This document shows positions 38,608 to 58,501 of a stretch of 64,000 bases of DNA, in pieces. The stretch comes from Bdellovibrionales bacterium (GTDB taxonomy: Bacteria > Bdellovibrionota > UBA1018), in the NCBI GenBank assembly GCA_016786465.1, contig JAEUWC010000030.1:248001-312000 (forward strand), written 5' to 3'. Below the pieces are notes generated by a model that worked only from the letters and a program-made list of their open reading frames with translations, ran no database searches and was not told the DNA's origin. Both the position numbers and the translations under genes were made by a program. The first letter of the stretch is position 1; each line of letters begins with the position of its first letter.

Positions 38608-40521
38608 ATGGAAGGGATGCCATTGGCCTTAGGAAGGGCGCTTCAGCAGCAATCAAATCAGTCACAGGGCCGACGGGCCCTGGGGATTCTTATTTCCTTG
38701 ATGCTGACGCTGGCGACTTTCGGGTGCGCAAAAAAAGAAGAGCGGTCCGGGGTCTGTGTGAAAACGCTAGCCTCAGGGACCGGAGCAACGGGTTCCGGAA
38801 AAGTTTTTGCTGTCGATCCGATGGTGTCGTCTGGAAATTCTCTTTTGTCGCCGACATCGACCACGGTCGGAAATTTTTCAACTTCAGTCACTTTGCAAAA
38901 CCTGACGGGCAAGGGCGTTCTTGAAGGAAGCTTTGTCACGGTGATTGATGGGCAAAGTTGCGAATTTGACTTTAATGCCTACAGTACTTCGAACGATTTT
39001 CAGTTTGATTACTCGAACAAGGCCTTTCAGGAAGTGACCGCTTACCATGCCGGAGATCGCTTTCGGTCAGAACTGAATTCAATCAATGCCCTTTTGCCGA
39101 CCGGGTCCGAAACGATCGTGTCCAATTGCATGGACGAAGATAACGCCTATTACCAGCGCTACCAGCTTCTAGATGGTTCAATCTATGGGGAAGTTTGCTT
39201 AGGAAATTCACAGGAATCCTTTGGCGCGCATTATGCGGATGATTCCACCGTTGTGATCCATGAACTTCAACATGGAACGACTGGTAAGGCATATTCTTCG
39301 ACCGAAGACTTAAACCAGTTGTTTTACGATGAAGCAGGTTCATTGAATGAAGCGATTTCCGATTTCATGGCGATGACCTTTTTGGAACCGCAGACGACGG
39401 GCTTCGATACCCGGATTTTTAGCCGCTGGGCTTTGGGTTCCTTCTTCGGAGCCGATAGTTACAACCGTGGCGGACACAAGTGTCCGGAATACGATGCGAC
39501 TTTTCCGACTTGCTCGGGGTATGCGTTGGGAGCCGCGGGTTTTGATGCTGCTACTAACCGTGCCAGTTACGCATATCCGGATGGCCTAAGTTGGAAGTTT
39601 GCCAAGGATTTTACAGGACCAGGATTCTTGCAATCGGCATTTTATGGAAATCCGTCGCATGAACAGATTCACAACAATGCACCTTTGATGGCCGGTGCCC
39701 TTTACGACATGTACGACGGTTTGAAGGCCGAAAACGGCGGTAACCAGCAGATCGCTTTTCAGAAGTCAGCAAAGGTTGTGATTGAAGCGTTGAAGCTGGC
39801 GACAAAGCCAACTGTCAGCAATCGAACGCCCGTCACTTTCCGTTCTTTCGCATCGACGGTCAACACGACCGCCGGACTTTTGGGATACACAGCAGGCGAG
39901 CAAACGGCGATTACCAACGCGTTGACAGCGCGTGGTCTTTTGGGCGGATCAACTTTGGCGGCAAGCTGGGCTTCTGTTGGAACGGGAAGCACAGAAGCTG
40001 CCGGCGTGAAGATCGTCGACAATCCGAACACCTTGAAAAGCTGGATTGCTTCGGCCTTTGGATCAAACATGTCGGCGGTGGTCACGCACACGACCGCAAC
40101 CGGTTTGAATAATCGCCTGAATGCCGGAGAAGTCGTCGCAATCTGGTTTGATATCAAGAACGATTCGACGATCACTGCCGGTGGAATCAATGTGAAGGCC
40201 CAGTCGTTAGATCCCGACGTGACCTTTTTGGATGGTCACTACAATTACGGATATATTTCATCGACTGAAGCCCAGATCATGTATTCGAAGATCAACGGTT
40301 CTGCAATCGTGACTGCTTTAGGTACTGGAACAGGCGCTTATTCGATCAGCACTGAAAATCGGTATTTCAAAACCAATCCGTACTATGCTTCGACTTACAG
40401 AACGGCTTTGTGGATGAAGGTCAGCAGTACAGCAAGTCCGAAGACAGTTACGATTCGTTTGACTTTGACGCCATCGAATGGCGCGACCACCACGGTGGAC
40501 TTTCCGGTGACGATCTACTGA
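38608..40521 (+). CDS. Thermolysin-like (M4/M36-type) metalloprotease lipoprotein without its own propeptide
   Basis: A 637-residue predicted lipoprotein protease (lipobox ATFGC, Cys40). The zinc site is VIHELQH (His218, Glu219, His222) with the third ligand Glu248 in SLNEAISDFMAM, the classic thermolysin/fungalysin pattern. A downstream HEQIHNNAPLMAGALYDMYDGL matches the substrate-site His helix region of the family. The N-terminal ~150 residues are too short for a full FTP-PepSY propeptide. A beta-rich C-terminal domain (~480-637) follows. The next gene, seven bases downstream, encodes a PepSY/FTP-like protein. The distal ATG was kept because the N-terminal basic stretch suits a signal sequence. 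Confidence 0.85.
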   Translation: MEGMPLALGRALQQQSNQSQGRRALGILISLMLTLATFGCAKKEERSGVCVKTLASGTGATGSGKVFAVDPMVSSGNSLLSPTSTTVGNFSTSVTLQNLTGKGVLEGSFVTVIDGQSCEFDFNAYSTSNDFQFDYSNKAFQEVTAYHAGDRFRSELNSINALLPTGSETIVSNCMDEDNAYYQRYQLLDGSIYGEVCLGNSQESFGAHYADDSTVVIHELQHGTTGKAYSSTEDLNQLFYDEAGSLNEAISDFMAMTFLEPQTTGFDTRIFSRWALGSFFGADSYNRGGHKCPEYDATFPTCSGYALGAAGFDAATNRASYAYPDGLSWKFAKDFTGPGFLQSAFYGNPSHEQIHNNAPLMAGALYDMYDGLKAENGGNQQIAFQKSAKVVIEALKLATKPTVSNRTPVTFRSFASTVNTTAGLLGYTAGEQTAITNALTARGLLGGSTLAASWASVGTGSTEAAGVKIVDNPNTLKSWIASAFGSNMSAVVTHTTATGLNNRLNAGEVVAIWFDIKNDSTITAGGINVKAQSLDPDVTFLDGHYNYGYISSTEAQIMYSKINGSAIVTALGTGTGAYSISTENRYFKTNPYYASTYRTALWMKVSSTASPKTVTIRLTLTPSNGATTTVDFPVTIY

Positions 40522-40528
40522 TAAAACG

Positions 40529-41374
40529 ATGGCGAACAAAAAAGCTTTGATCATCGGCTTTTTAGTTCTTTTGGTGGTGGCCGTAGGCGCCTATTTTGTG
40601 GTGGGTCACCGTTCACCTGACCCCTTGCCTTCGATTCCACAAGCTGATCCAAGCCCGATGACCGAAGTCGCGGGTTCGCCCATTCCTTCACCGGTGATTT
40701 CACCTTCGCCCCTTTCGGAACAAGACATCAAGGCGCCTTCTAGCAAGCGGATGCAGCAGTCATTTGAAAACGTAAAGTCTAGGTATGGCGCTGACCTTCA
40801 AGCCATGTTTTCACAAGACGGACGCGTGACACAGCTTCGGGGTCGTGTGCGCCCGGACCTAAAAGGCAAAACAGGTTTTTCAACCAAGGATCCAGGGCAC
40901 GCGAAAAAGCTTGCAACCGAACTGATACAGTCCGCCCGTGACGCCTTGGGAATCACGGGGCGTTCACCCGTGGGTGATCCTTTGGTGCAGACAGGTGATA
41001 TTTCGGCGCAGGTTTACTTCAGGCAGCTGTACGAGGGTCTGGTCGTTCAGCCCCACGGAACGATTACCGTCAACCTGGGGCCGTCAGGCGAATTGATTCA
41101 ATTGGATTCGGATTATTTGCCTGGGGTTCGCGTGACCAATTGGGCATCGATTTCACCAGACCAAGCACTGGCTGCAGTTCCAAAGTTTGATGATGAAGAT
41201 TCAGAATCCGGTGGAAAGTCGACGGGCCGAATTTTGGGTGGAAGCCTAATCGTTTGGGCCGTGCCTGGCACTGAAGCTCGAAAAGCTTACGAATACTATT
41301 CCAGTGGTCGCCAAGTCATCGTCGACGCGCAGACAGGAAAAGTGATTTCGACACGCGATCGGCGGATGCAGTAA
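40529..41374 (+). CDS. Membrane-anchored PepSY/FTP-like protein, likely trans-acting propeptide of the protease
   Basis: A 281-residue protein with an N-terminal membrane helix (6-27), a Pro/Ser-rich linker (~30-70) and a domain resembling the FTP/PepSY propeptide of thermolysin-like proteases. The match covers YFRQLYEGLVVQPHGTITVNL and the PSGELIQLDSDYLPG turn, followed by DQALAAVPKF and a final YYSSGRQVIVDAQTGKVIS PepSY-type hairpin. It starts seven bases after the protease gene ends. In M4/M36 enzymes this domain is normally fused to the protease and acts as chaperone and inhibitor; here it appears as a separate chain (inference). Confidence 0.78.
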   Translation: MANKKALIIGFLVLLVVAVGAYFVVGHRSPDPLPSIPQADPSPMTEVAGSPIPSPVISPSPLSEQDIKAPSSKRMQQSFENVKSRYGADLQAMFSQDGRVTQLRGRVRPDLKGKTGFSTKDPGHAKKLATELIQSARDALGITGRSPVGDPLVQTGDISAQVYFRQLYEGLVVQPHGTITVNLGPSGELIQLDSDYLPGVRVTNWASISPDQALAAVPKFDDEDSESGGKSTGRILGGSLIVWAVPGTEARKAYEYYSSGRQVIVDAQTGKVISTRDRRMQ

Positions 41375-44773: not shown

Positions 44774-45550
44774 ATGACTCAGCAAGTCTTTGAAAAAAAA
44801 CACCATTGGTTCTTGGTCCGTGGCCTGGCCCGTGAGGCCGGTCATTGGGTTGATTTTCAGGCCCGGTTAAAGCGGGCATTTCCCCAGGCTGAAATCCATT
44901 GCTTGGACTTGGTCGGATCCGGGGTCCATCGCCATGAAACCGTACCCCTTTCAGTCGGAAAGTTCTTAGATATCAGTCGGGCCGATTTTCTAAAGGCCAA
45001 AAAAGGGTCCGAAGGCCCGGCATTCGTCCTGGGCATGAGCCTGGGCGGAATGGTGGTCATGGAATGGATTTCCAGATTCCCGGATGATTTTCAAGGCGCC
45101 GTCATGGTCAACAGCAGCGCCAAGACTTTCAGCCTTCCTTGGAAAAGGATGCATCCCAAATCCCTGTATGGGATTTTCCGGGCTTCACTTTCGCGAACTG
45201 CTGAAGAACGCGAAAAACGGGTCCTTCTGAACGTCGCTCGAAGTGAAAAAAGGCGTGCCGAAACGCTTCCGCATTGGATCAAGGTTCACGAAGAACGACC
45301 CATTTCCCGAACTGCGGCGATCCGTCAAATTCTGGCGGCTTCGCAGTTTGATCCGCAAGTTCCACCGCGGCATCCAAAAACTTTGGTGCTGTGTGGATTA
45401 GGGGACGAAATGGTCCACCCATCCTGTTCGGTCGCATTGGCAAAAGCGTGGGAAGGCGAACTTAGGAATCATCCATGGGGCGGGCATGATCTGGGTGTCG
45501 ACGATCCGGACTGGATCGTTGAACAACTGAAAACTTGGAATCCGTTATGA
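44774..45550 (+). CDS. Alpha/beta hydrolase
   Basis: A 258-residue cytosolic alpha/beta hydrolase. WFLVRGLAREAGHWVDF is the oxyanion region, GMSLGGMVVMEW carries the nucleophile Ser (GxSxG), TLVLCGLGDEMVHPS supplies the acid residue region and WGGHDLGVDDPDW the catalytic His. Substrate unknown. A TATACT stands at 44744-44749, but there is no clear ribosome site. Its stop overlaps the next ATG by four bases. The in-frame extension to 44693 overlaps the divergent gene and is rejected. Confidence 0.85.
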   Translation: MTQQVFEKKHHWFLVRGLAREAGHWVDFQARLKRAFPQAEIHCLDLVGSGVHRHETVPLSVGKFLDISRADFLKAKKGSEGPAFVLGMSLGGMVVMEWISRFPDDFQGAVMVNSSAKTFSLPWKRMHPKSLYGIFRASLSRTAEEREKRVLLNVARSEKRRAETLPHWIKVHEERPISRTAAIRQILAASQFDPQVPPRHPKTLVLCGLGDEMVHPSCSVALAKAWEGELRNHPWGGHDLGVDDPDWIVEQLKTWNPL

Positions 45551-46329
45551 ACGTACTTTTTCATTGGATCACAATCACTTCGGTTTGGGCCACGACGTTT
45601 GTGGCGGTCCCTTTTTCGCAAACCGTGAAGGAAGCTGACACCATCGTGCGTGGAAAGATCGGCGATTCACATGTGGATTGGAGCAAAGTCGCCTTGGATG
45701 GCGAAGGTTCTAAGCGCATCTACACCTATTACGAATTGAAAGTGGACGAAGTCGTGAAAGGAAATCTTTCAAATTCGAAGTCTGTGATCATTCGCCAAAT
45801 GGGGGGCGAAAAAGACGGGGTGGGGTTATCGATTCCGGGATCCGCAAAATTTTCGGCGGGTGAAGATGTGGTCGTTATGCTGGGACCCGCGCTATCGGAT
45901 CAGACCCACGATTTGATGGGACTGATGGTTGGGAAGCTTCAGGTTGTTCGCGATGAAAAGGGTCAGGAAGTCTTGAAAGGTCCGGCCGTCAGCGGTGATT
46001 TCGGTGCCGAAGGTGTCGCATTGCACGGAGATCATCGCGACCCAGCAAAAACAGAACCCGTAACTTTGGAAGGCCTTCGGCGAATCGTGAAGGAAACCGT
46101 TGGATCTGGAACGGGCCAGGTCGCCCAGGTCAAAGAAGTGGCCCCCGTTGCAGCAACGCCCGCTGCCCTTGCAAGCGCAACCCCGAACGCAGCACAGACT
46201 GCGGAAGTTGATTCGCAAGATGACGGCTGGTCGAAATTGAAAAGTCCGATGGGATTTGGACTGGTCGCCCTTTTCCTGGTCGTTCACTTTCTTCGGCGCT
46301 TGGCCGTGAAAAAGAACGGAAAAAATTAA
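45547..46329 (+). CDS. Secreted protein with a C-terminal membrane anchor and basic tail
   Basis: A 260-residue protein with an N-terminal signal segment, a beta-rich globular domain (ADTIVRGKIGDSHV, YTYYELKVDEVVKG, VIIRQMGGEKDG, GEDVVVMLGP), an Ala/Thr/Val-rich linker and a C-terminal helix (MGFGLVALFLVVHFL) ending RRLAVKKNGKN. The domain looks like those in secreted proteins that start 'ADxIVxGxV'; function unknown. The four-base overlap with the hydrolase decides the start at 45547. Its end overlaps the convergent lipoprotein by four bases. Confidence 0.78.
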   Translation: MNVLFHWITITSVWATTFVAVPFSQTVKEADTIVRGKIGDSHVDWSKVALDGEGSKRIYTYYELKVDEVVKGNLSNSKSVIIRQMGGEKDGVGLSIPGSAKFSAGEDVVVMLGPALSDQTHDLMGLMVGKLQVVRDEKGQEVLKGPAVSGDFGAEGVALHGDHRDPAKTEPVTLEGLRRIVKETVGSGTGQVAQVKEVAPVAATPAALASATPNAAQTAEVDSQDDGWSKLKSPMGFGLVALFLVVHFLRRLAVKKNGKN

Positions 46330-47474
46330 CGAATCAAATAGACCGCTGCACCTGAAAAAGCCCAAGCGCTTGGGGCGCTATTACAAACGGAAGTCCCAGC
46401 CGCGTGGGTTTTCTTTTCGACCCTTAGGCGACCTTCTGAAATCAACTGAACCAGGAAGCTGTAAGTCGAAGTTCCCAGATTTGAATCGTAACAATAAATT
46501 GAACCATCCGCGCTGATGTTTTCCGGAGCGGCGTTCAGCTTTCCTGTGGTTTGCAAAGTGAACTTTACCAAAGCGGACGGATTCAGGGCCGCAATTCGTG
46601 TTGATATGACCGCTTTCGTTTCGCCTGCATAAGGATCGCGCGCCAGAACAAAAAAATCACTGGCGGTCGGATCAGTGCCGTTAGCGGGGCTTGATTCAAG
46701 CGTCCAGCGCCCCCGCGCCGTTCCCGTTAGGTCGACCTGCATGGTTCCACACTTCGGGGATTCGGTTGTGAAAGTCGCGCCATCCCCAATCTTTGATTCC
46801 AGCTGGCTGCGAATCGGCTCAGAAAACCAGCTCCAAGGGCAAAGCGTTCCTGAACTGGGGTTTCCGTAACGGGAAGGGTTGACGTAATCAGAAACACGGC
46901 TGTCTCGCATCCCAATGTCCATTGCTGGTGAATGCGGAGGAGTCCCAGTCGTTCCCAAAGTGGAACCCGCAGATACCGAAATATTCACGCGAACTTCGCA
47001 GTTCCTGACCGTTTCGTCGACGGTGCTGTATTCACTGCAGGTCAGGGTCCCCAGTTGGCTGGAAATCGCAGGGTCTAACGAAGACAGGTGGCCCAGGTGT
47101 CCGCCGACTTCTCGGCAAACGTCGAAGTAAACGGCATAGTCAGTGTAGCCCGGACGGGTGGGTGATGTGACGTAAGTGACTTCGCGAACCGATTTGATGA
47201 TCAAGTTTCCGGGCGCCGTTACTGGAACGTTTGACGAATTCAACATGAAGCCGGTGTGGGCCTTGGGCAGTGGGCTTCCACCCACGGGTGCAAGTGTACC
47301 GATGGGTGCTAGGTACGAAATTGCCGAAGTGGGGACGGGCTGAACTGAAAAAAGATCACTGTCCGTACAAGCGGGAAGTGCTGCTTCTTCTGAATCGCCG
47401 TCGCCACGTGAACGACAAGAAGAGCTGCTGATCACTAGGGTCGAAAAAATCACCATCAAGAAAACAGGTCTCAT
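46326..47474 (-). CDS. Lipoprotein with a degenerate M23-like domain
   Basis: A 382-residue predicted lipoprotein (lipobox ISSSSC). The segment KAHTGFMLNSSNVPVTAPGN through GYTDYAVYFDVC and GGHLGHLSSLD is laid out like the lysostaphin-type M23 fold (H-T-G-x-D ... Y-A-V ... G-H-L). However, the expected ligand Asp after HTG is missing, so peptidase activity is doubtful. A Cys-rich C-terminal half follows (TLTCSEYS, VRNCEVRV, GTLCPWSW, KCGTMQVD, YCYDSNLG). It may bind peptidoglycan instead of cutting it. Confidence 0.75.
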   Translation of the reverse strand: MRPVFLMVIFSTLVISSSSCRSRGDGDSEEAALPACTDSDLFSVQPVPTSAISYLAPIGTLAPVGGSPLPKAHTGFMLNSSNVPVTAPGNLIIKSVREVTYVTSPTRPGYTDYAVYFDVCREVGGHLGHLSSLDPAISSQLGTLTCSEYSTVDETVRNCEVRVNISVSAGSTLGTTGTPPHSPAMDIGMRDSRVSDYVNPSRYGNPSSGTLCPWSWFSEPIRSQLESKIGDGATFTTESPKCGTMQVDLTGTARGRWTLESSPANGTDPTASDFFVLARDPYAGETKAVISTRIAALNPSALVKFTLQTTGKLNAAPENISADGSIYCYDSNLGTSTYSFLVQLISEGRLRVEKKTHAAGTSVCNSAPSAWAFSGAAVYLIR

Positions 47475-47665
47475 CCGCTACCGATCGTCTATGGGTATCG
47501 TTGAAAACGCAATGGCCCTGAAAAATCTGCCTATCTGTGTCCCAAAAGGCGCCCCAAATTGGCCCCAAAACGTCCTCAAAAGATCCTAAGACCAGCTCAG
47601 GGTGCCAGAAAACGCTCATGGACCCGGGCCCGGCGGTTGCATTAAACTTTGGGTAAGGGCCCGAC

Positions 47666-49558
47666 ATGATGTCAGGCTCGGAAAGCTACGGTCCAAGGAT
47701 GGATTTCTTGCGCGCTTCCGCATGGGCGTTCGCATTCTGCTTCGCCACTTCTTCGGCACACGCCTTCATCCCGTCACGCATGGGTAATGGAACCGCGATC
47801 AAACATCGCGGCACCGTCGCGCGCTTGGACCTTGCGGGAAATCCAAAGAATCAGTCGGGCCTGACCGATGCGCAAGTTTTTCAATCCTTTACACGACCAC
47901 TTCAGCGTTGGAATGAGGCTGCCAACGGTTCGGTTGAAATTCGTTATTGGCAGGGAAGCGATTCTTCAGTTTTCGAACCCAATAGCGAATACAACGGAAT
48001 TTCATCCGTCTATTTTTCTTCAAACGCCAACAGCGATCCCGGCTTGGGTTCTGGCGTGATTGGACTGACCCAGGTTTGGTACCGCCCCGACAGCGGAGAA
48101 ATCTTGGAAACCGATATGGTCTTTAACGACCAAAATTACATCTTCAGCACAAACGTCCGCGATTCCAGCCAGCCGTCTTCGGGTTTTCCAACGGGCCGAG
48201 TATTTCTGGAAAACGTTGTCACCCACGAAATGGGACACGCGTTGGGACTTTCGCATAGCCCTTCGATGCAATCGACGATGCTGTTTGTCGAAGCGTCGCA
48301 ACAAGCGTTCCTAGCTTGTGACGACAAAACAGCGATTCACCACTTGTATCCGTCGGGTGATTTCGGTTCTCGTGCCGGGATTCAGGGAAGCGTGATTTCT
48401 CAGTCAGGTGCGCCGATTTTCGGCGCCATGGTGACCGCGATTTCACGTCGTCGAGGCGTATCATTGGGGTCAGCAGTTACGGACAAATCCGGCTTCTTCA
48501 CCATTTCTTCGTTGGAACCTGACACCTATTTTCTGCTGATCGAGCCTTTCTTGGCTAGCCCGACTGTTTTGTCAGACTACTATCGGGATGTTTCGACTTT
48601 GGTTTGCAGCGGAAAATCCTTCGGACGCTTCTTACTGACTGAAGCTGACGGTCTGACTCCGCGTTCTTTTGTGGCTCAGGCCGGAGAAACCAAGCCCGTC
48701 GGCGCAATCACGGCGGTTTGCAGTGGCGGCGCTTCTTGGGAAGCGACTTTTCAAACGGCATCAGGTGCGGCTGCGTCTTCTACGGCTCCGGTCATTTACA
48801 CAGGACCCGGAACTGCGAATCCGGTCGGGGGCTTCGGATTTTCAAATGATGTCGGTCAGAATGCGACGACTTACTACAAAGTCAAAAGCGTCGCAGGTTC
48901 AGTTCGTTTTTCCGCCATCGGTTTCAGTCTGTATTCTGACCGCGGATTCCGTTTGAACCTGATCAATTCTTCGGGCGTGACGGTCGCCACTTCAGGCGCG
49001 AATCCTTCGTTCACCGGCGCATCCGGATTCCGAAACTGGGATGCGACGATCGTGAAGTCCGGCTTGCCGTTGGACGACTACACGATTCAGATCGAAGCGT
49101 TTTCGGTCGAATCGCGGGCCTATCCTGCAAGCTGGCCGTTGGGCGACCAGACTTCGTTTCTGATTCTGACAGGAAGTCTGAATGAATCTGCCGGCGCTTT
49201 GGTGTCGTCACTGCCGGAAAATCCTAGGTGTGAATCTGCGGATGCGACGACAGCGTACGTAAGTCCCGATGGCTTGCCGCCGCGAAAAGACACTTCGTTT
49301 ACGCCAAAGACCGGGTTCTGCGGAAGCGTTCGCCAAATTCATGAAAACGGTGGACGCTACACCGACAAAAAACTGCCGCCTTGGGCTTTGAAGATTCAGA
49401 CAATTGAAAGCCCAGTACTTCAGGCCCATCGTCATGCCGCCTGGTTGAATGCCATGGGCTTCTTCTTGCCTTTGCTTTTGGCGATGCTTTGGACTCGATC
49501 CCGGGCGTTCCGGGCTAGAATTCGGAATCGCTTCGCGTTACGCTTCTTTCATGACTAG
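47666..49558 (+). CDS. Secreted matrixin-like (M10) metalloprotease with C-terminal membrane anchor
   Basis: A 630-residue secreted protease. A signal peptide (to ~AHA, residue 33) is followed by an M10-type catalytic domain with TDMVFND (calcium/structural region), THEMGHALGLSHS (His187, Glu188, His191, His197) and the Met-turn MQSTMLF (Met205). A carboxypeptidase-regulatory-like beta domain lies at ~235-300 and further beta domains at ~340-520. A C-terminal helix (GFFLPLLLAMLW) ends in an Arg-rich tail. Substrate unknown; the anchor implies a cell-bound protease. AGGG lies seven bases before the ATG. Its end overlaps the next start by eight bases. Confidence 0.87.
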   Translation: MMSGSESYGPRMDFLRASAWAFAFCFATSSAHAFIPSRMGNGTAIKHRGTVARLDLAGNPKNQSGLTDAQVFQSFTRPLQRWNEAANGSVEIRYWQGSDSSVFEPNSEYNGISSVYFSSNANSDPGLGSGVIGLTQVWYRPDSGEILETDMVFNDQNYIFSTNVRDSSQPSSGFPTGRVFLENVVTHEMGHALGLSHSPSMQSTMLFVEASQQAFLACDDKTAIHHLYPSGDFGSRAGIQGSVISQSGAPIFGAMVTAISRRRGVSLGSAVTDKSGFFTISSLEPDTYFLLIEPFLASPTVLSDYYRDVSTLVCSGKSFGRFLLTEADGLTPRSFVAQAGETKPVGAITAVCSGGASWEATFQTASGAAASSTAPVIYTGPGTANPVGGFGFSNDVGQNATTYYKVKSVAGSVRFSAIGFSLYSDRGFRLNLINSSGVTVATSGANPSFTGASGFRNWDATIVKSGLPLDDYTIQIEAFSVESRAYPASWPLGDQTSFLILTGSLNESAGALVSSLPENPRCESADATTAYVSPDGLPPRKDTSFTPKTGFCGSVRQIHENGGRYTDKKLPPWALKIQTIESPVLQAHRHAAWLNAMGFFLPLLLAMLWTRSRAFRARIRNRFALRFFHD

Positions 49559-50090
49559 AAAAATCTCGACCCTCGTCTTCGTGATTTCAGCGATCGCTCT
49601 GTCCCAAATGCCGCAGGTCATAGCGGCGTTGAAACCTGAAAAGGTTTACCTTGCGGAAAATCGTCCGAAGAAAGTTTTCATCGACGATGGATTGATCACG
49701 GGCGGTGATCGAAATATTGATGCGGTGATTTTGAAAGATATTCGTCGTGCGCCAAATCAGGGTTTCGAACGGTGGGTGATCGACCTGGAAGGATTTCAAA
49801 ACGGAGAAACCGTCGCGATCCCCAGACCGCCGTACTATCAAGTCGCGGTGAACCCCGAAGAAAAGCGGATGGTTTTCACCATCTTTGGAAATCCGAAGTT
49901 CAACTTCAATTCCAAGAAAGTTTTGGCTTCATTTAGAAAAAGCCCACTTGTGTCATCGCTGGAACTCTTCCCAAAGCTTGAGGAGCAGAGCTGGACCTTT
50001 AGCGTCAATTTGAAAAAAGGGGTCCCAGTTGAGGTATTTGAACTATCAAACCCCGTTCGGATCATTGTCGATCTGAAAACCGGGAAGTAA
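49551..50090 (+). CDS. Secreted AMIN-domain-like protein
   Basis: A 179-residue protein with a signal peptide ending near VIAA. The mature part is beta-rich with GFERWVIDLEGFQNGE, EKRMVFTIFGNPKF and ELSNPVRIIVDLKTGK, which resemble the AMIN domain that places cell-wall and secretin proteins in the envelope. It overlaps the protease gene by eight bases, and the lipoprotein gene follows after 21 bases, forming a three-gene unit. Confidence 0.77.
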   Translation: MTRKISTLVFVISAIALSQMPQVIAALKPEKVYLAENRPKKVFIDDGLITGGDRNIDAVILKDIRRAPNQGFERWVIDLEGFQNGETVAIPRPPYYQVAVNPEEKRMVFTIFGNPKFNFNSKKVLASFRKSPLVSSLELFPKLEEQSWTFSVNLKKGVPVEVFELSNPVRIIVDLKTGK

Positions 50091-50111
50091 GATTGTGATA
50101 AGGAAATACCT

Positions 50112-50648
50112 ATGACCTATAAACAGATTTTATCTGGGCTTTCGATCGTTTTGATTTCTGCAGCTTTGGGTGCAGGTTGTTCGAGCGGACCCGAAGTGAA
50201 GAAGCAGGCGTACGCATCGTCGCCCAACTTTCGAACTTTTGAATACGAACTTCCGGTTGTTTGGAAGGCTTCGCTTCGTGCCTTGAAAGACAACAAGATC
50301 GTCGATCGCGAGCCTGAAGACGACAACCCGGTCGAACTTAAAAAGTTGACTGAAGCGTCGCTTGAAACCGACTGGATCTATTCGCAGTCGCGCGACAAGT
50401 ACCACGAATATAAAGTCAACGGATCACCCCGGCGTAAAGCTTTGCAGGTGCGCCTGAAATACAAGCTTTCTCTGAAGACCACGATGGGCGGCACGGAAGT
50501 CAAAGTGGGATTGAAAGAAGAATTGGAAAGATTGAAGGAAGATGGATCTTCACGTGGCTATGATTCGGTCGAAGACCCCGATTCTGGCCGTGCAGCTGAA
50601 ATTTTGGACCGTATCGGGGCCGGAATTCTTTCGGCGCCCAATATCTAG
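50112..50648 (+). CDS. Small lipoprotein, BamC/NlpB-like region
   Basis: A 178-residue predicted lipoprotein (lipobox LGAGC). The pattern FEYELPVVWKASLRALKDNKIVDREPEDDN, followed by charged beta strands (LQVRLKYKLSLKT, TEVKVGLKEELERL), resembles the helix-grip domains of BamC-like lipoproteins. The match is weak and the protein is short for BamC. It is the third gene after the M10 protease and AMIN-like genes. Confidence 0.78.
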   Translation: MTYKQILSGLSIVLISAALGAGCSSGPEVKKQAYASSPNFRTFEYELPVVWKASLRALKDNKIVDREPEDDNPVELKKLTEASLETDWIYSQSRDKYHEYKVNGSPRRKALQVRLKYKLSLKTTMGGTEVKVGLKEELERLKEDGSSRGYDSVEDPDSGRAAEILDRIGAGILSAPNI

Positions 50649-50656
50649 GGCCTAAT

Positions 50657-50675
50657 TCCCCTGAACCACAGGGGG
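50657..50675. other. Hairpin next to the promoter of the following gene
   Basis: CCCCTG (50658-50663) pairs with CAGGGG (50669-50674) around AACCA; an outer T-G pair extends it. It lies immediately before TTGACA (50677) and lacks a T-run. It could end the lipoprotein mRNA or be an operator. Confidence 0.35.
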
Positions 50676-50676
50676 C

Positions 50677-50704
50677 TTGACACATCGCGTATAACGCTGA
50701 TATC
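50677..50704 (+). promoter_or_regulatory. Promoter TTGACA-N16-GATATC giving a leaderless mRNA
   Basis: A perfect TTGACA (50677-50682) and GATATC (50699-50704) lie 16 bases apart, and the ATG is at 50713. A transcription start seven to nine bases after the -10 would fall on or just before the start codon. Confidence 0.45.
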
Positions 50705-50712
50705 GCCCTGCC

Positions 50713-51048
50713 ATGGCATCCAATCTATTGGCAGTACTGGTCTTGGCATTGATGGCTTTTTCTTCGTATGGGCAAACCCCGGCGGTCGTTAAGGGTATTG
50801 ACCAAAAAGGGACCTGCGAATTCAAAATGGCCAATACCCCATCCCCTAAGGAATCGGGATACCCCTATGTCCTTCGCGAATGGACCAGTTGGATGGAATC
50901 AGGGCGTGACGTCACGGTCGACGAATGCATTCGGACTACCCTGGAAAACCGCCGTAAAGACCCTTCCTTTCAATTTGACGACAAAGTCATGTACCGATTT
51001 AAAGTCGGTCGCAAGGTGGTCGCCAAAGGCGCTTTTTATAATCGTTAA
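50713..51048 (+). CDS. Small secreted protein of unknown function
   Basis: A 111-residue protein with a signal peptide (MASNLLAVLVLALMAFSSYGQ). A short mature part holds one Cys pair (GTCEFKM, DECIRTT) and a basic, beta-rich C terminus (DKVMYRFKVGRKVVAKGAFYN). No family recognised. No Shine-Dalgarno precedes the ATG; see the promoter entry. Confidence 0.72.
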   Translation: MASNLLAVLVLALMAFSSYGQTPAVVKGIDQKGTCEFKMANTPSPKESGYPYVLREWTSWMESGRDVTVDECIRTTLENRRKDPSFQFDDKVMYRFKVGRKVVAKGAFYNR

Positions 51049-51135
51049 CTAGCTGAAATTAAAAGAAATTAATTCCAGACTAAATAACTCATAAATTATT
51101 TGCGCATAGCGTTAAAATCCGCTAAAAGAAGCCCC

Positions 51136-51798
51136 ATGATGCGCCACTTAGTCCGCTCTATTTTGGGGCTGATTTCACTTTTTGGGTTCATGTCCCAAGC
51201 ACATGCGGTCGGGTTACCCCCTTTGGTCGCTGGACAAGATATTGTGGCGTCGGAAATCCGTGAACGCGCCTTTGGCGGTGCTGCCATTAGCCGTAAAACC
51301 AAGGATCAGGCTCGATTCCTTTGCGTTGAATACAACAGTTCAACCGGCAATTGCGCGATCTACCAATGGATCCTGCTACGCCGCCACGAAAAGGGCTATT
51401 ACGTGGTCGCAAATTCTGCCATTCGGACCCAGCCGGCGCCGGCGACTCCGGATGTGATGGCGGCTCAGCTGCTATCGACCCACGAATACGGCGAATTGGT
51501 TGTTGATCGAAAATTACTTCGCACCTTTGAAATCATTGAACTTTGGAAAACCTGCGTATTCGACAAGTGCAATATACCCGCCCCATTTGTGGTCCTAAGC
51601 ATCGCTACGGTGCCTGCACAGTTCGTGGCTGACGTGGCGACCATCCCTGCGAAATTCATCGCGAATCGCATTCACCGAATGCGCCTGAAGGGCAAGATTC
51701 GCAGATTCCTGCGTTCGATCCGAGACAATGAAAAGAATGAGGTTTTCAAGTTCGATCAGAACGTCTTTGAATACTCGATGCCGATGCTCGGAATCTAA
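51136..51798 (+). CDS. Secreted protein of unknown function
   Basis: A 220-residue protein with a signal peptide ending SQAHAV. The mature part has two Cys pairs (FLCVEYNSSTGNC and KTCVFDKCN), a hydrophobic stretch (FVVLSIATVPAQFVADVATIP) and a strongly basic helix (NRIHRMRLKGKIRRFLRSI). It may be membrane-associated. The ATG at 51136 follows AAGAAG and was preferred to an in-frame codon at 51100. Not recognised. Confidence 0.72.
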   Translation: MMRHLVRSILGLISLFGFMSQAHAVGLPPLVAGQDIVASEIRERAFGGAAISRKTKDQARFLCVEYNSSTGNCAIYQWILLRRHEKGYYVVANSAIRTQPAPATPDVMAAQLLSTHEYGELVVDRKLLRTFEIIELWKTCVFDKCNIPAPFVVLSIATVPAQFVADVATIPAKFIANRIHRMRLKGKIRRFLRSIRDNEKNEVFKFDQNVFEYSMPMLGI

Positions 51799-51801
51799 TT
51801 T

Positions 51802-51829
51802 CTTGCCAGACCTAGATTCAACACCATCT
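51802..51829 (+). promoter_or_regulatory. Candidate heat-shock (sigma32-like) promoter of lon
   Basis: CTTGCC (51802-51807) and CACCATCT (51822-51829), 14 bases apart, match four of six and six of eight positions of the sigma32 consensus (CTTGAA / CCCCATTT). A GAGGAG ribosome site (51841-51846) precedes the ATG. Confidence 0.4.
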
Positions 51830-51851
51830 TAGGGATAGGTGAGGAGCTTCT

Positions 51852-54377
51852 ATGTCAGACAACGATTCGGGCTTGGGTGAAAAAACTTCAGATGACGTGC
51901 AGGTCCGTGCGGCCGTGCCGGTGGGGTCACTGGTTCTGCCGGATCAGGTCCTGCCGCCCAATCTTTTCGTTCTTCCCATTCAATCAGCAGTCGTATTCCC
52001 GACTTTGATGGCCCCGGTATTGGTTCAGAACCCGCGCTTTGTAGCGACCGTTGAAGAAGTTGTCGCACGCAATCGAACCATCGGTCTTTTGATGACCCGG
52101 GATGACATCGAAGTCAGCGACAAGCTGAAAGAATCCGAACTTCACGATGTCGGTGTGGTCGTAAAGATTCTTAAGCGCCTGAAGATGCCCGACGGATCTG
52201 TGAATCTTCTGATTCATTCCGTAAAAAGATTCAAAGTTAAGAAATTCCTGTCCAATCAACCGCATTTCGTCGCCGACCCGGAATACCTGGATGATGTAAT
52301 TGAAAAGTCCAACGAAATGGACGCGTTTTCACGCGCCGCGATTTCACACGTTAAAAAGCTTTCGGAAGTGAATCCGTTTTTTACCGAAGAAATGCGTTTA
52401 GCCATGATCAATGCACCTAGCCCAGGCACGGTAGCTGACTTGGTCGCCTTTGCGCTGGCGCTTCCGAAGAATGATGCCCAGGACTTTTTGGAAACGCTGA
52501 ATGTGAAAGAACGTTTCGAGAAACTTTTGATCCACCTGCGGCGCGAACAGGATGTCGCAGACCTTCAAAAGAAAATTTCCGACGAAGTGAACGGAAAGAT
52601 TTCAAAACTTCAGCGCGAATTCTTTTTGAAAGAACAGCTGAAGAGCATCAAAAAAGAATTAGGTGTTGAAGAAGACGGCAAGGACAAGAATTCCAGAAGC
52701 TTTCGCGAGCGCATTGAAAAGGCAGAAATGCCCGAAGACGTGAAAAAGATCGCCTTCGAAGAGCTGGAAAAGTTCGAAACCATCAGTGAACAGTCGCCTG
52801 AACACAATATCCTTAGAAATTATTTGGAACTTCTTTGCAGTCTTCCGTGGGGAATCGAAACGGCAGACAACCTGGACTTAACCCATGCGCGCAAGATTTT
52901 GGATGCCGATCACTTTGGATTGGAAAAGGTGAAAGATCGAATCATCGAATTCTTAGCAGTGCGAAGGCTGAACAAAAGTCCCAAGGGTTCGATTATTTGT
53001 TTAGTCGGACCGCCTGGGGTGGGGAAGACTTCGATTGGTAAATCTGTAGCCCGGGCCTTGGCTCGGCACTTTTACCGCTTTTCATTGGGCGGTATGCGCG
53101 ACGAAGCCGAAATCAAGGGCCATCGCCGAACTTATGTGGGCGCACTGCCCGGAAAAGTTTTGAACGCAATGAAGCGTGCGGGAAGCAAGAATTGCGTTTT
53201 GATGTTGGATGAAATCGACAAATTGGGTGCGAGCTTTCAAGGCGATCCAGCTTCGGCCCTTTTGGAAGTTCTGGACCCCGAACAGAACCATGCGTTTTTG
53301 GATCACTATTTGGACGTGCCCTTTGACCTTTCTAAAGTTCTTTTCATTGCCACTGCAAACAACCTTCAATCGATTCCGGCCCCGCTTTTGGACCGAATGG
53401 AAATCATCGAACTGCCAGGCTACACACTTGAAGAAAAAGAAGACATCGCTACCCGCTATCTTCTACCAAAAGTCCTTCAAGAAAATGGGCTGAAGTCGGG
53501 GCAGATTCGCCTGGAAAAGGCGACCTTGAAGGCGTTGATGACGGACTATTCGCGCGAACCCGGACTTCGAACGCTTCAACAACTGATGAACAAGATCGCG
53601 CGTAAAGCGGCTGCGAAAATTGTGATCAGCCAGGAAGATCGCGCGAAGATGACCGCTAGAATCGTCATTAAACCTGACGACCTGGCCACTTGGCTTGGAC
53701 CTAAGCGTTTCTATAACGAAGTAGCGGAACGGATCACGGCCCCAGGCGTGGTGACGGGGTTGGCCTGGACAGCGATGGGTGGTGACATCCTGTTCATCGA
53801 AGCCCAGGATATTCCCGGCAACGGACAATTGAAGATCACCGGTCAGCTAGGCGAAGTGATGACCGAAAGCGCTGCCATTGCTTACAGCTACGTCAAGAAG
53901 CGGGCTGAAAAAGAACATGGCGTTGATCCGGAATTTTTCAAAAACCGCGACATTCACATTCACGTTCCCGCCGGTGCTATTCCAAAGGATGGACCATCGG
54001 CCGGGGTGACGATGGCTTCGGCGATCCTTTCCTTGATCACAGGTCGAATTTCAAAAGCTAGGATTGCAATGACCGGTGAACTTTCCTTGGTCGGCAAGGT
54101 CCTTCCCGTTGGGGGCATTAAGGAAAAGATCCTGGCTGCGAAGCGGGCAGGAATTCACACAGTCGTTCTTCCGAAGTTGAATCAGAAGGATTTGACTGAA
54201 GTGCCCGAACAAGCGCTTCAGGGAATGACGATTCATTGGGCCAGCCAAGTCGACGAAGTTTTTAGCCTGGTGTTAGAACCGGCCGCGCAGAAAAAAAAGA
54301 AGAAGTCCGGCAAGGTGATTCGAACCCATTCAAAGAATGTGCGTGATTCAAAGTCGGTCAATTTAAGGCGCGTATAA
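51852..54377 (+). CDS. lon: ATP-dependent Lon protease
   Basis: The 841-residue Lon removes damaged and regulatory proteins. The N-terminal substrate-binding domain starts at ~37 (LFVLPIQSAVVFPTLMAPV). A coiled coil (~235-285) leads to the AAA+ module with GPPGVGKTSIGK (~385) and the Walker B MLDEIDKLG. The C-terminal protease domain has PKDGPSAGVTMASA (catalytic Ser) and VGGIKEKILAAKRAGI (catalytic Lys). A basic tail (KKKKKSGKVIRTHSKNV) extends past the usual end and overlaps the convergent gene by 15 bases. GAGGAG precedes the ATG. Confidence 0.97.
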   Translation: MSDNDSGLGEKTSDDVQVRAAVPVGSLVLPDQVLPPNLFVLPIQSAVVFPTLMAPVLVQNPRFVATVEEVVARNRTIGLLMTRDDIEVSDKLKESELHDVGVVVKILKRLKMPDGSVNLLIHSVKRFKVKKFLSNQPHFVADPEYLDDVIEKSNEMDAFSRAAISHVKKLSEVNPFFTEEMRLAMINAPSPGTVADLVAFALALPKNDAQDFLETLNVKERFEKLLIHLRREQDVADLQKKISDEVNGKISKLQREFFLKEQLKSIKKELGVEEDGKDKNSRSFRERIEKAEMPEDVKKIAFEELEKFETISEQSPEHNILRNYLELLCSLPWGIETADNLDLTHARKILDADHFGLEKVKDRIIEFLAVRRLNKSPKGSIICLVGPPGVGKTSIGKSVARALARHFYRFSLGGMRDEAEIKGHRRTYVGALPGKVLNAMKRAGSKNCVLMLDEIDKLGASFQGDPASALLEVLDPEQNHAFLDHYLDVPFDLSKVLFIATANNLQSIPAPLLDRMEIIELPGYTLEEKEDIATRYLLPKVLQENGLKSGQIRLEKATLKALMTDYSREPGLRTLQQLMNKIARKAAAKIVISQEDRAKMTARIVIKPDDLATWLGPKRFYNEVAERITAPGVVTGLAWTAMGGDILFIEAQDIPGNGQLKITGQLGEVMTESAAIAYSYVKKRAEKEHGVDPEFFKNRDIHIHVPAGAIPKDGPSAGVTMASAILSLITGRISKARIAMTGELSLVGKVLPVGGIKEKILAAKRAGIHTVVLPKLNQKDLTEVPEQALQGMTIHWASQVDEVFSLVLEPAAQKKKKKSGKVIRTHSKNVRDSKSVNLRRV

Positions 54378-56183
54378 GTAAAGCGGGACCCAAAGGAAGC
54401 CGGATTCCTGGGTCATGCTTGCGCCGACATAGAAATCCATTCCGAAAAGTTTTTCCGGAATCACGGTTTCGTAAATCACTTCGCCGGCCTTTTCCATGTC
54501 CAAGCTGGCTTGGGTAAAGCGTTTTAGAACTTTGTCACGTACGATGCCGTCGGCAAAACCGAATCGGACGCCCTTTGGATCCACTACGATACTTTTCAAG
54601 TCGATCTTTTCTTTTGTGACTTTCAGTTGATCCGCAAACTTGTCGATCTTCAGGACCAAATCAAACTGAATGTCCAAGGCTCCGTGTGTCGCAAACCAAT
54701 CCCAGTCGGATCCAGGCACAGGAACTGGAACCGTGGTGGGGATGGGGTAAATGACTGGAACGGGAACGACTCTTCCACGATCCAGCTTGTATTTGGCATT
54801 GATGCGCATGACCGCACGATCAGGTCCCAAGCGACCATCCAGCAGGATGCGCGGGGCTTCATTCATCACGATGAAAAAGCCGCCACCGATCGGAATGCTT
54901 TTGTTGTAGCCGCGATCGAATGAAAGTCGCAATGCACGATTCAATAGGGCTTCATTCACGGACACCCACGCTTGGGGTGCATTCTTTCCTGTCGTCGTAA
55001 CAGATCTAGGGATTTCCGGACGTTTCGACGGAAAGCGCGAAATCGGTTGCGTCGTTACCGATGCGACCGGATCGTCAATTTGGGTTTGGGCACTGAAGTA
55101 TAGCGCTTCACTTCTCCAATCGAAGATTCGCTCGATTTCGCCAGGGAAAATTCGAAAATCAAAAGGGACATCCTTTTCGGTTTTCAGTTCTTTTGCGGGT
55201 TCACCGGGTGCCGGAAAGGCGAAAGGCTTCATGTCCAAGAAGCTGGCCAGCTTGGCTTCGGCCATTTCGTTCAGCTGTTCATGAAGTTCATTATTGATGA
55301 AACCTGCCGCTGCTGTGTGAATTGCTTTGATCAAATCGGGTTCTATTTTCTGAATTTCACGATTCAATCCCGCCTTGCTGAGCAAAATTTTCGTCGGGAC
55401 ATCGTTTGGATCGGTTGGATCCGATAACGTCAATGCAATTTCAGGTAGTTCAAGCTGTCCGAAGCGAAGATCCAGAAGAACATTCGCCAGGTTCGACCTT
55501 CCCGGGAAAAATTCGACGGAAACTTTCCCGTCTTTCGAACGCAACACGAAAGGAAGGTTGATGGTCAGGGGCGGAGAAAATGAAGGCATGACCATGCTTG
55601 GATCGTTAAGACCCAAAGGGTTCAAAAAGGCATTTGCGCGGTCTTCCACGCGAATCTTTTTCACATCGACACGGGCCGACTTGATCGAGGCCACGAATTC
55701 AAAAGCCATGCTCGCAGGACCCGAACGAAGCGTAGCGGCGGGATCCAGTTGAAAGCCCAGGCGATCGAATTGCAATTGGTATTCAAGGCCTTGGACTTTG
55801 AACGAAATCAACGGGGCTTTGACCTTAAAGCCCTTAAGCCATGCGCGAAACAGGTCACAAAAAACTTCGAAAGTTTCGGCAGCTTTTTCACCGCCTTTTC
55901 TTCCTGCCAGCATCTTTTTAATGCGCGCGACGGTGAACGGCGTCGTCAGTTTTTCAGAAATTTCGTCAACCCTACCCTGGGAAAGGTCAACGTCCATGGA
56001 TTTCAAGATTGTTTGAATCGATTGAAACAAGGTGTCCTGCCCTGACTTCGTCAGAAAGATCCCAACAGAATGGGGAATCGGCTTGGACCGAGCAGGCGGT
56101 TCCGCCTTCGCAAATTGCGAAACCGGAACCGCTGCCAGTGCTGTGCTCAGAAGCAAATGAAGAGAAAAGCGATTCAAACGCAT
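54363..56183 (-). CDS. Large secreted protein, possible TULIP/BPI-like lipid carrier 1
   Basis: A 606-residue secreted protein with a signal peptide (to ~FAKAE), not matched to a named family by me. It shares the order and spacing of several blocks with the gene at 56834: NRALRLSFDRGYNKSIPIGG versus NRTLQLSFLRGYFDNISIGD, and an ending IPEKLFGMDFYV...SGFLWVPLYLY versus IPQSFYGIPLNL...DGYIYLHFNL. Long amphipathic helices alternate with extended strands, as in tubular lipid-binding (TULIP/BPI) folds. The lipid role is inference. It follows the small secreted gene after 15 bases and overlaps lon by 15 bases. Confidence 0.75.
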   Translation of the reverse strand: MRLNRFSLHLLLSTALAAVPVSQFAKAEPPARSKPIPHSVGIFLTKSGQDTLFQSIQTILKSMDVDLSQGRVDEISEKLTTPFTVARIKKMLAGRKGGEKAAETFEVFCDLFRAWLKGFKVKAPLISFKVQGLEYQLQFDRLGFQLDPAATLRSGPASMAFEFVASIKSARVDVKKIRVEDRANAFLNPLGLNDPSMVMPSFSPPLTINLPFVLRSKDGKVSVEFFPGRSNLANVLLDLRFGQLELPEIALTLSDPTDPNDVPTKILLSKAGLNREIQKIEPDLIKAIHTAAAGFINNELHEQLNEMAEAKLASFLDMKPFAFPAPGEPAKELKTEKDVPFDFRIFPGEIERIFDWRSEALYFSAQTQIDDPVASVTTQPISRFPSKRPEIPRSVTTTGKNAPQAWVSVNEALLNRALRLSFDRGYNKSIPIGGGFFIVMNEAPRILLDGRLGPDRAVMRINAKYKLDRGRVVPVPVIYPIPTTVPVPVPGSDWDWFATHGALDIQFDLVLKIDKFADQLKVTKEKIDLKSIVVDPKGVRFGFADGIVRDKVLKRFTQASLDMEKAGEVIYETVIPEKLFGMDFYVGASMTQESGFLWVPLYLYAP

Positions 56184-56833: not shown

Positions 56834-58501
56834 TTAGTCCCTTAGGTTGAAGTGCAGGTAGATGTACCCGTCACTGACTTTGAAATGGTCTAGGTTAAGC
56901 GGAATCCCGTAGAACGATTGTGGGATCATCACTTCGTTTGAAAGCAAAGTTTCTGTTTCGGCCCAAGCGCGGTTGGCGGCTTCCAGTTTCTGCAGAATGG
57001 TTTTACGAACTTTCTTTTTGAAACCTAGGTTACGCAAAGAATTTGGATTGATCCAAAGTGAAGAAGTGTCGACTGAATGTTGAACCAGTTTCACTGCGTT
57101 TCCAGTCTTCTTGATCTGGACGTTCAGCTTGAAGCGCATGTGCATGGGGTTTCGGACGGCCAGGCTTCGCGTCAGGAAGTCTTTGACTTCGTAATTCGCA
57201 TCGATGGTCAATGCAACTAGGTCCGACTTCTTTCCCTGTTCCAGAATGACGGCTGGGGCAGACACCAGCTTAATGGTTTCGCCGTCACCGATCGAAATAT
57301 TGTCGAAGTATCCGCGAAGAAATGAAAGCTGAAGGGTGCGATTGACCAAGGTTTCTTTGATCGCAAAGGATAGATCTGAATTCAGCGCATCTTCGTCAAA
57401 GGCATGGTCTGCAGTTCCCTTTCGGGCTTCTGGAAGCGGCGTCTTGATTCGAATGGGGTCGTCGATGTTGGCGGAAAGGTCAGCGATGATCAGGTGATCT
57501 TTAGTGGTAGTCAGACCTGAAAGTTGAATTCCGAAGCGGTACTTTTCGTCTTTTTCATTCAATGCACCCGGCGGATCCATCGTGTCGACTTCAGGGTCGT
57601 TAGGATTGTAGCCCTGCTTCACTTCGTGGTTCATCTGTGAAGCCAGCTTTTCGTCCACGAAGGCCTTTAATGAATTCTGAAGCGCTTTCAAAAGTGAATT
57701 CTTGTGTTTGTCGATGAAGGTGCTGATTTCAGAAAAGTCCAAGCGACCTTTCGCGCTGCCCACGCCCAGGTCCACCTGCGGGGTCAGCAGTTGAACTTTC
57801 TTTGGAAGTTGAAATTCAACCGTGTCGATGTTGGTTTCTAGACTTTTAGCCACGACATCGATCGTCCGGTCTGCTGCGGACACGCCGATTTCAACCGGGA
57901 TCCGCAAATAAAAAGGATTCGTGTTTGGGACTTTTGAAAAGGCGAATTCGTTGATTCCCCAAGTACGAAGTACTGGGTTTGCCTGATCTTTCAGCCGAAT
58001 CTGGGTTGCGGAAAGTTCGAATTCTGAAAATTCCATCGAAGCGATCAGGGTCACAGATCCGTTCCCAGGATTCGCGTCCATCTTTGCCCAGTCGGGACGA
58101 ATTGAAAGGCGAGTGTCGCCGTAATACATCAGTTCGTTGATGTGGATGTTTGGGACCGAGGGCTTGAGGTCCAGTCCAATCGTCAGAAGATTGATTTTTG
58201 AAAGAAGCTTCCGGAAGGCGTCGCTTTCGGGTGATTTTTTCTTCGCGGCACTTTCCTTAAGAAAGTCGTCAAACGTGAAGTCGATTTTGTCGTAAATCCC
58301 GGCGTCGATCGCGATCCCGTTCCCGGCCAAAATCGCGCCTAGGTTTTCTTCAAAGTACTTTTGTCCCGAAGGCGAAATGGAAATCGCGACGGCTTTTTCC
58401 ATTCGGGTTGGGTGCTTTTCAGAAAAGGTAGCCCGGGCCGGGTGGGCCACAAGAATGGCAGCAAAAGTGCTGATGGCTACGCGCACGAATGGAAGTTTCA
58501 C
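56834..58501 (-). CDS. Large secreted protein, possible TULIP/BPI-like lipid carrier 2
   Basis: A 555-residue secreted protein with a signal peptide (to ~ARATF), paralogous to the gene at 54363 (see the shared blocks there). Extended amphipathic strands (IGLDLKPSVPNIHINELMYYGDTRLSI) and several long helices (KNSLLKALQNSLKAFVDEKLASQM) recur. The C-terminal IPQSFYGIPLNLDHFKVSDGYIYLH resembles the terminal strand pattern of BPI-fold proteins. Role inferred only. It is the first gene of a three-gene unit, following the rpoZ terminator. Confidence 0.75.
   Translation of the reverse strand: MKLPFVRVAISTFAAILVAHPARATFSEKHPTRMEKAVAISISPSGQKYFEENLGAILAGNGIAIDAGIYDKIDFTFDDFLKESAAKKKSPESDAFRKLLSKINLLTIGLDLKPSVPNIHINELMYYGDTRLSIRPDWAKMDANPGNGSVTLIASMEFSEFELSATQIRLKDQANPVLRTWGINEFAFSKVPNTNPFYLRIPVEIGVSAADRTIDVVAKSLETNIDTVEFQLPKKVQLLTPQVDLGVGSAKGRLDFSEISTFIDKHKNSLLKALQNSLKAFVDEKLASQMNHEVKQGYNPNDPEVDTMDPPGALNEKDEKYRFGIQLSGLTTTKDHLIIADLSANIDDPIRIKTPLPEARKGTADHAFDEDALNSDLSFAIKETLVNRTLQLSFLRGYFDNISIGDGETIKLVSAPAVILEQGKKSDLVALTIDANYEVKDFLTRSLAVRNPMHMRFKLNVQIKKTGNAVKLVQHSVDTSSLWINPNSLRNLGFKKKVRKTILQKLEAANRAWAETETLLSNEVMIPQSFYGIPLNLDHFKVSDGYIYLHFNLRD

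Follow-up and report, generated by a model that had tools for sequence, protein, structure and literature searches.

Thermolysin-clan proteases are textbook enzymes that are folded and held inactive by a covalent propeptide. Can such a propeptide be supplied as a separate protein, from a gene of its own? The question is raised by two adjacent genes in a 64,000-nucleotide stretch of DNA (the window) from a Bdellovibrionales bacterium (assembly GCA_016786465.1, contig JAEUWC010000030.1, positions 248,001 to 312,000). P0001 (38608..40521, 637 residues) encodes a lipoprotein that resembles M36 zinc metalloproteases, and P0002 (40529..41374, 281 residues) a membrane-anchored protein that resembles FTP-PepSY propeptides. 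Both are open reading frames (ORFs) on the + strand, as are all the features of the pair located below, and they are separated by 7 nucleotides (nt). An initial annotation of the window had described a membrane-anchored protein seven bases downstream of the protease, and the gene layout bore this out. From sequence comparisons and predicted structures we conclude that a thermolysin-clan protease and its propeptide are genuinely split here, and that the split is conserved and structurally well supported. A promoter and terminator scan found signals at chance level only, and was uninformative on transcription.

P0001 carries the complete HExxH+E site that had been assigned to it. In an alignment of 21 homologues, H218, E219 and H222 of the HELQH zinc-binding and catalytic motif (residues 218-222; 39259..39273), E248 in NEAISD (39349..39351) and H355 (39670..39672) were invariant or nearly so, H355 being invariant. 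From knowledge of M4 and M36 enzymes, we take E248 to be the third zinc ligand and H355 to occupy the position of the catalytic His of thermolysin. The polypeptide begins with a signal peptide and lipobox (...LTLATFGC; 38608..38727), in which the lipid Cys40 (C-A-K-K) was nearly invariant among the same homologues, and the lipobox pattern recurred in 65 of the 75 protease loci of the wider scan described below.

The protease had been called thermolysin-like. This description held for the clan, given the gluzincin site and a predicted M36/M4 fold, while the family could be refined. P0001 matched the Pfam Peptidase_M36 profile (PF02128) with E = 1.2e-8 and 35 bits, above the curated cut-off of 23.3, whereas its M4 match (21 bits) was under the cut-off of 24.4, and 19/21 homologues matched the M36 profile at E <= 1. 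On these profile scores the catalytic domain is nearer to M36 than to M4. The fold comes from a model of the homologue L081, not of P0001 itself, which showed the M36/M4 catalytic fold with Z-scores of 25.0 to 7qfy_A and 7z6t and about 25 to 7qp3. Residues ~421-621 of this model resemble immunoglobulin/cohesin-like domains (Z ~7), and from its beta-rich C-terminal region we place a predicted beta-sandwich domain at the C-terminal end of P0001 (approximate limits 40015..40518). Searching the PDB with the single sequence of P0001 or P0002 gave nothing useful, and profiles were required.

Might a propeptide nevertheless lie within the protease? An N-terminally fused FTP-PepSY propeptide, the usual feature of M36 enzymes, is absent from P0001, as judged from the homologue-model alignment and from the spacing between the lipid Cys and HExxH. 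In the L081 model, residue 1 of the mature solved enzymes aligns about 21-30 residues past the lipid Cys; the enzymes in this alignment were thermolysin, LasB, ProA and the M36 structures 7qfy_A, 7z6t and 7qp3 crystallised "without the propeptide". Cys40 and H218 are 178 residues apart in P0001. The corresponding spacing spans 178-193 residues among the close proteases and 201-234 residues in the distant proteases (with one outlier, L131, at 144), which likewise begin near the lipid Cys. The distance is too short to hold the catalytic N-lobe plus an FTP-PepSY domain, and we therefore conclude that no propeptide is fused to the enzyme. The initial annotation had argued that the N-terminal sequence was too short for this domain, and had named a fused propeptide inside the protease as the finding that would overturn its proposal; the first point agrees with our alignment, and a search for the second found no such domain.

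The missing domain appears instead to be encoded by P0002. The segments originally singled out as FTP-PepSY-like are present, and Pfam placed an FTP motif at residues 162-192 (41012..41104; E = 0.0054) and a PepSY domain at residues 208-275 (41150..41353; E = 5.5e-5), in the expected order and place. Within the P0002 family, whose homologues share 19-34% identity with P0002, FTP was matched in 10/21 members (best E 6.5e-5) and PepSY in 7/21. The family profile had its best PDB matches in the vibriolysin propeptide chain and in residues 98-218 of pro-thermolysin, each with E about 0.04. P0002 also matched DUF4245, a DDE transposase and PgfA, but weakly, and these matches were dismissed as chance.

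AlphaFold, using a 21-member alignment, modelled P0002 with a mean predicted local distance difference test score (pLDDT) of 85.9. A helix at residues 2-26 (40532..40606), which has no lipobox, agrees with the hydropathy of the family N-termini and supports the membrane anchor first annotated. It is followed by a Pro-rich linker of low pLDDT, predicted to be disordered (residues 27-71, 12 Pro in 45; 40607..40741), and then by a well-predicted domain with mostly high pLDDT (residues 72-281; 40742..41371). Only three PDB entries matched this model below 0.001 in Foldseek, two of them being the vibriolysin propeptide (3nqy_A, E = 1.7e-6) and the fungalysin propeptide (4k90_B, E = 1.3e-5). VIA-align gave Z-scores of 10.6 and 10.7 for these two chains, and a span of 10.5-10.7 with 3nqz_A included.

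The partner also ends where a propeptide would be expected to end. Its last residue, 281, pairs with residue 204 of 3nqy_A and residue 245 of 4k90_B, which, from the chain lengths and our knowledge of these entries, we take to be the processed propeptide ends. In the vibriolysin propeptide (3nqy_A, 180 residues), N177 lies 8 residues past the glycine of DAxxG, so the chain ends 11 residues past it. The P0002 tail after Gly270 (KVISTRDRRMQ; 41339..41371) has the same length, and the C-terminus lay exactly 11 residues past this glycine in 20/20 complete family members. The reading frame of P0002 thus terminates at the point at which fused propeptides are cleaved off.

Is the pairing conserved? 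We compared gene presence in 58 genomes from the same family, order and class as the source. Both genes were found in 21 genomes, the protease only in 2, a doubtful partner only in 1 and neither gene in 34, a co-occurrence with a Fisher value of 1.6e-12 that is not corrected for phylogeny. One genome counted as protease-only (G024) has a divergent neighbouring partner, L088 (profile match 95.7%, E 1e-8). The single partner-only genome (G046) was rejected as carrying a real homologue, since its match covers 62 N-terminal residues (E 8e-4) and comprises membrane helix and linker only. In 20/20 close loci the partner gene lies directly downstream of the protease gene in the same orientation, with gaps of -11 to +21 nt, while the immediate flanks of the pair in the window (thrA, thrB, thrC, argS and others) were found in 0/20. 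Part of the matrixin-AMIN-lon group described below lies near the pair in some relatives, in varying orientation. Family distances of protease and partner correlated with r 0.76, a value calculated without a species-tree comparison and not used here.

A scan with the protease alignment, taking one genome per species, extended this distribution to 75 loci, nearly all titled Bdellovibrionota or older names. These comprised 23 close relatives and 52 distant loci (about 21-36% identical in the part that matched), the latter mostly from Bacteriovoracaceae and Halobacteriovorax. Five of the 75 loci end too early for a partner to be assessed. In 68 of the 70 assessable loci, a gene whose product has a hydrophobic helix at its N-terminus begins at a distance of -8 to +22 nt from the protease stop (the gap in L122 is -8 by coordinates). 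Conservation of the two genes as neighbours in related genomes, which the initial annotation had asked about, is thus seen both in the close loci and across the wider scan.

The distant partners differ in what can be recognised of them. In Bacteriovoracia, the C-terminal PepSY-like part alone is recognisable (profile-profile 96.6%, E 5.4e-10), with a weak Pfam PepSY match in 7/44 partners, and the FTP half has therefore probably been lost or diverged. The Bacteriovoracia loci also show a secreted-looking protein of ~900-1300 residues encoded upstream of the protease in the same orientation, in many cases only tens of bases away (L094:2827-5928 and equivalents in most of the loci L094-L145). 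The one example tested had no Pfam match. In Bacteriovoracia, this large protein may belong to the system as its third component.

What, then, does P0002 do? We consider it probable that it is an M36/M4 FTP-PepSY propeptide working in trans, as a membrane-tethered steric chaperone and product-like inhibitor of P0001; this reading draws on sequence and models together. In the mechanism that we propose, the protease would be exported unfolded via Sec as a lipoprotein. P0002, anchored in the inner membrane and with its domain facing the periplasm, would bind to the nascent protease and serve it as a steric chaperone, in the manner of a fused propeptide, and its C-terminus would then occupy the active-site cleft much as a cleavage product does, thereby silencing the enzyme. 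Activation might follow when the lipoprotein is passed on to the outer membrane, leaving the chaperone behind, or when P0002 is broken down. The outer membrane is the likely destination of the protease, judging from the Ala that follows its lipid Cys.

Several observations weigh against this reading. The top Foldseek match of P0002 was not a propeptide but the C-terminal domain of YpeB (5boi, E = 2.6e-7), which also had the higher VIA-align Z-score (11.3). A co-fold of the L081 read-through pair (TAA read as Gln, mostly unpaired alignment rows) reached a predicted template modelling score of 0.65 and gave no interface output for the complex that the initial annotation had proposed to model, although it did yield the catalytic fold of L081 described above. 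All of the close-group genomes are metagenome assemblies, and the signal anchor of P0002 is judged to be uncleaved from hydropathy and the model only. In two loci, L091 and L140, the protease has intact zinc motifs but is not followed by a membrane-anchored partner, and the partner is therefore either not always needed or replaceable. These two loci are natural tests of partner necessity. Finally, the Pfam matches of P0002 were below the cut-offs, by 0.2 bits for PepSY (23.8 against 24.0) and by more for FTP (17 bits against 21.0). Thus, of the FTP/PepSY assignment first made for this protein, the similarity, whose absence would have overturned the initial proposal, stood, but a confident profile match was not obtained. 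However, the same genome encodes, on contig 17, a conventional M4 protease with a fused N-terminal propeptide (L003:277-1845, minus strand, 523 residues), and this propeptide also failed both cut-offs (PepSY 0.05, 14.4 bits; FTP 0.073, 13.4 bits). As a genuine fused propeptide from the same genome scores below P0002, the Pfam cut-off is not decisive here. The presence of this ordinary M4 protease alongside P0001 and P0002 also means that fused and split forms coexist in one genome.

The alternative that survives best is that P0002 is mainly an immunity-type inhibitor, which would protect the periplasm of the producer, as emfourin does for protealysin, with a protease that folds alone. M4 proteases, however, need their fused propeptide for folding, and P0001 is entirely without one. 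In protealysin the propeptide is fused to the enzyme, and emfourin does not belong to the FTP-PepSY proteins; subtilases with stand-alone inhibitors of the I9 type also keep their own propeptide, and these inhibitors have no membrane anchor. Both systems nevertheless lend the immunity role some support. The gene of the M4 protease protealysin and that of its inhibitor emfourin, which binds the active-site region, share one operon and so resemble P0001 and P0002 in arrangement (PMC9505478), and the propeptide-like inhibitors of subtilisins (MEROPS I9; SUB1-ProM) are, like P0002, separate gene products, in one instance encoded beside subtilase genes (PMC6993865), although they act on another protease clan. 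The position of the P0002 C-terminus at the junction, and the two loci with a protease and without a partner, would also suit an inhibitor. Against this, a membrane helix followed by a flexible linker is the anatomy of a steric foldase (PMC13381987), and the tight gene spacing suits assembly of a pair. We therefore regard a role in immunity alone as rather unlikely. The combination of steric chaperone and product-like inhibitor is favoured, since what the partner supplies is precisely the part on which the fused relatives rely for folding.

Less probable again is that P0002 is a PepSY regulator like YpeB or YycI, which localises or stabilises the protease, or senses the envelope, and does not act at the active site. 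YpeB is the best structural match by Foldseek and Z-score, and it is likewise a PepSY protein anchored in the membrane, whose gene shares an operon with that of an envelope hydrolase, SleB; the two proteins depend on each other for stable incorporation (PMC6660665). However, SleB is a cortex-lytic enzyme of spore formers (Bacillus), while the neighbour of P0002 is an M36 protease that lacks exactly this domain. In addition, the C-terminal end of P0002 fits propeptides at their cut site, and its root-mean-square deviation to YpeB is higher than to the propeptide chains (6.0 compared to 3.9-4.5). A last alternative is that inherited synteny or coincidence explains the adjacency, and a generic cystatin-like fold the FTP/PepSY likeness. 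This would agree with the sub-threshold Pfam scores and with a wider neighbourhood (matrixin, AMIN-like, lon) partly common to some relatives, but is very hard to credit when the immediate flanks change and the pair stays together, when 68/70 assessable loci found via the protease alone carry the partner, and when the fold matches lie well above unrelated entries and name propeptides of the same clan.

How does a propeptide in trans compare with known systems? The fused propeptides of vibriolysin MCP-02 (3NQY/3NQZ) and fungalysin Mep (4K90) share the fold and end point of P0002, and their enzymes the HExxH+E+H clan of P0001. They differ in being the N-terminal part of one polypeptide, from which they are cut off, whereas P0002 is the product of a separate downstream gene with its own membrane helix. 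In its layout P0002 is closer to the lipase-specific foldases Lif/LipH and to CpaB, which are also encoded next to their enzyme and have an N-terminal membrane helix, a flexible linker and a periplasmic domain, the topology of P0002 being predicted from its sequence. The LipH linker has 41 residues with 11 Pro (PMC13381987), compared to 45 with 12 in P0002, and CpaB is a membrane-anchored chaperone, encoded just downstream of the metallopeptidase that depends on it (PMC4713064). Lif and CpaB nevertheless have other domains (SRPBCC predicted for CpaB), and their clients are substrates of the type II secretion system that are not known as lipoproteins. P0002 gave no Pfam or Foldseek match to Lif or CpaB, although homology could escape these searches. 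Unlike P0002, neither has a domain that is the propeptide of its client's own family. Searches of open-access literature turned up no account of an M36/M4 propeptide split from its enzyme. More tentatively, P0002 could represent a third class of membrane-anchored steric foldase, and the first to be built from a propeptide native to the family of its client, in which sorting of the lipoprotein to the outer membrane would pull the two proteins apart and so activate the protease without cleavage.

Elsewhere, the window encodes a second secreted metalloprotease, which is matrixin-like (47666-49558; Pfam M10, E = 2.4e-9). It belongs to a group at 45535-54377 that also contains a 264-residue membrane protein (45535), an AMIN-like protein (49449), a lipoprotein (50112) and lon (51852). 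Two large minus-strand ORFs, at 54363-56183 (606 residues) and 56834-58501 (555 residues), resemble each other in how they are laid out around a small secreted ORF, and are possible paralogues.

Enzyme and propeptide thus occur as separate products across many Bdellovibrionota genomes, and the end of the partner corresponds to the cleavage point of the fused propeptides. The split makes it testable whether the chaperone and inhibitor roles of such propeptides require covalent attachment or cleavage. Distant versions are present in cultured predators such as Bacteriovorax, where these roles could be tested, and the system should be of interest to those who study protease zymogens, periplasmic foldases and predatory bacteria.
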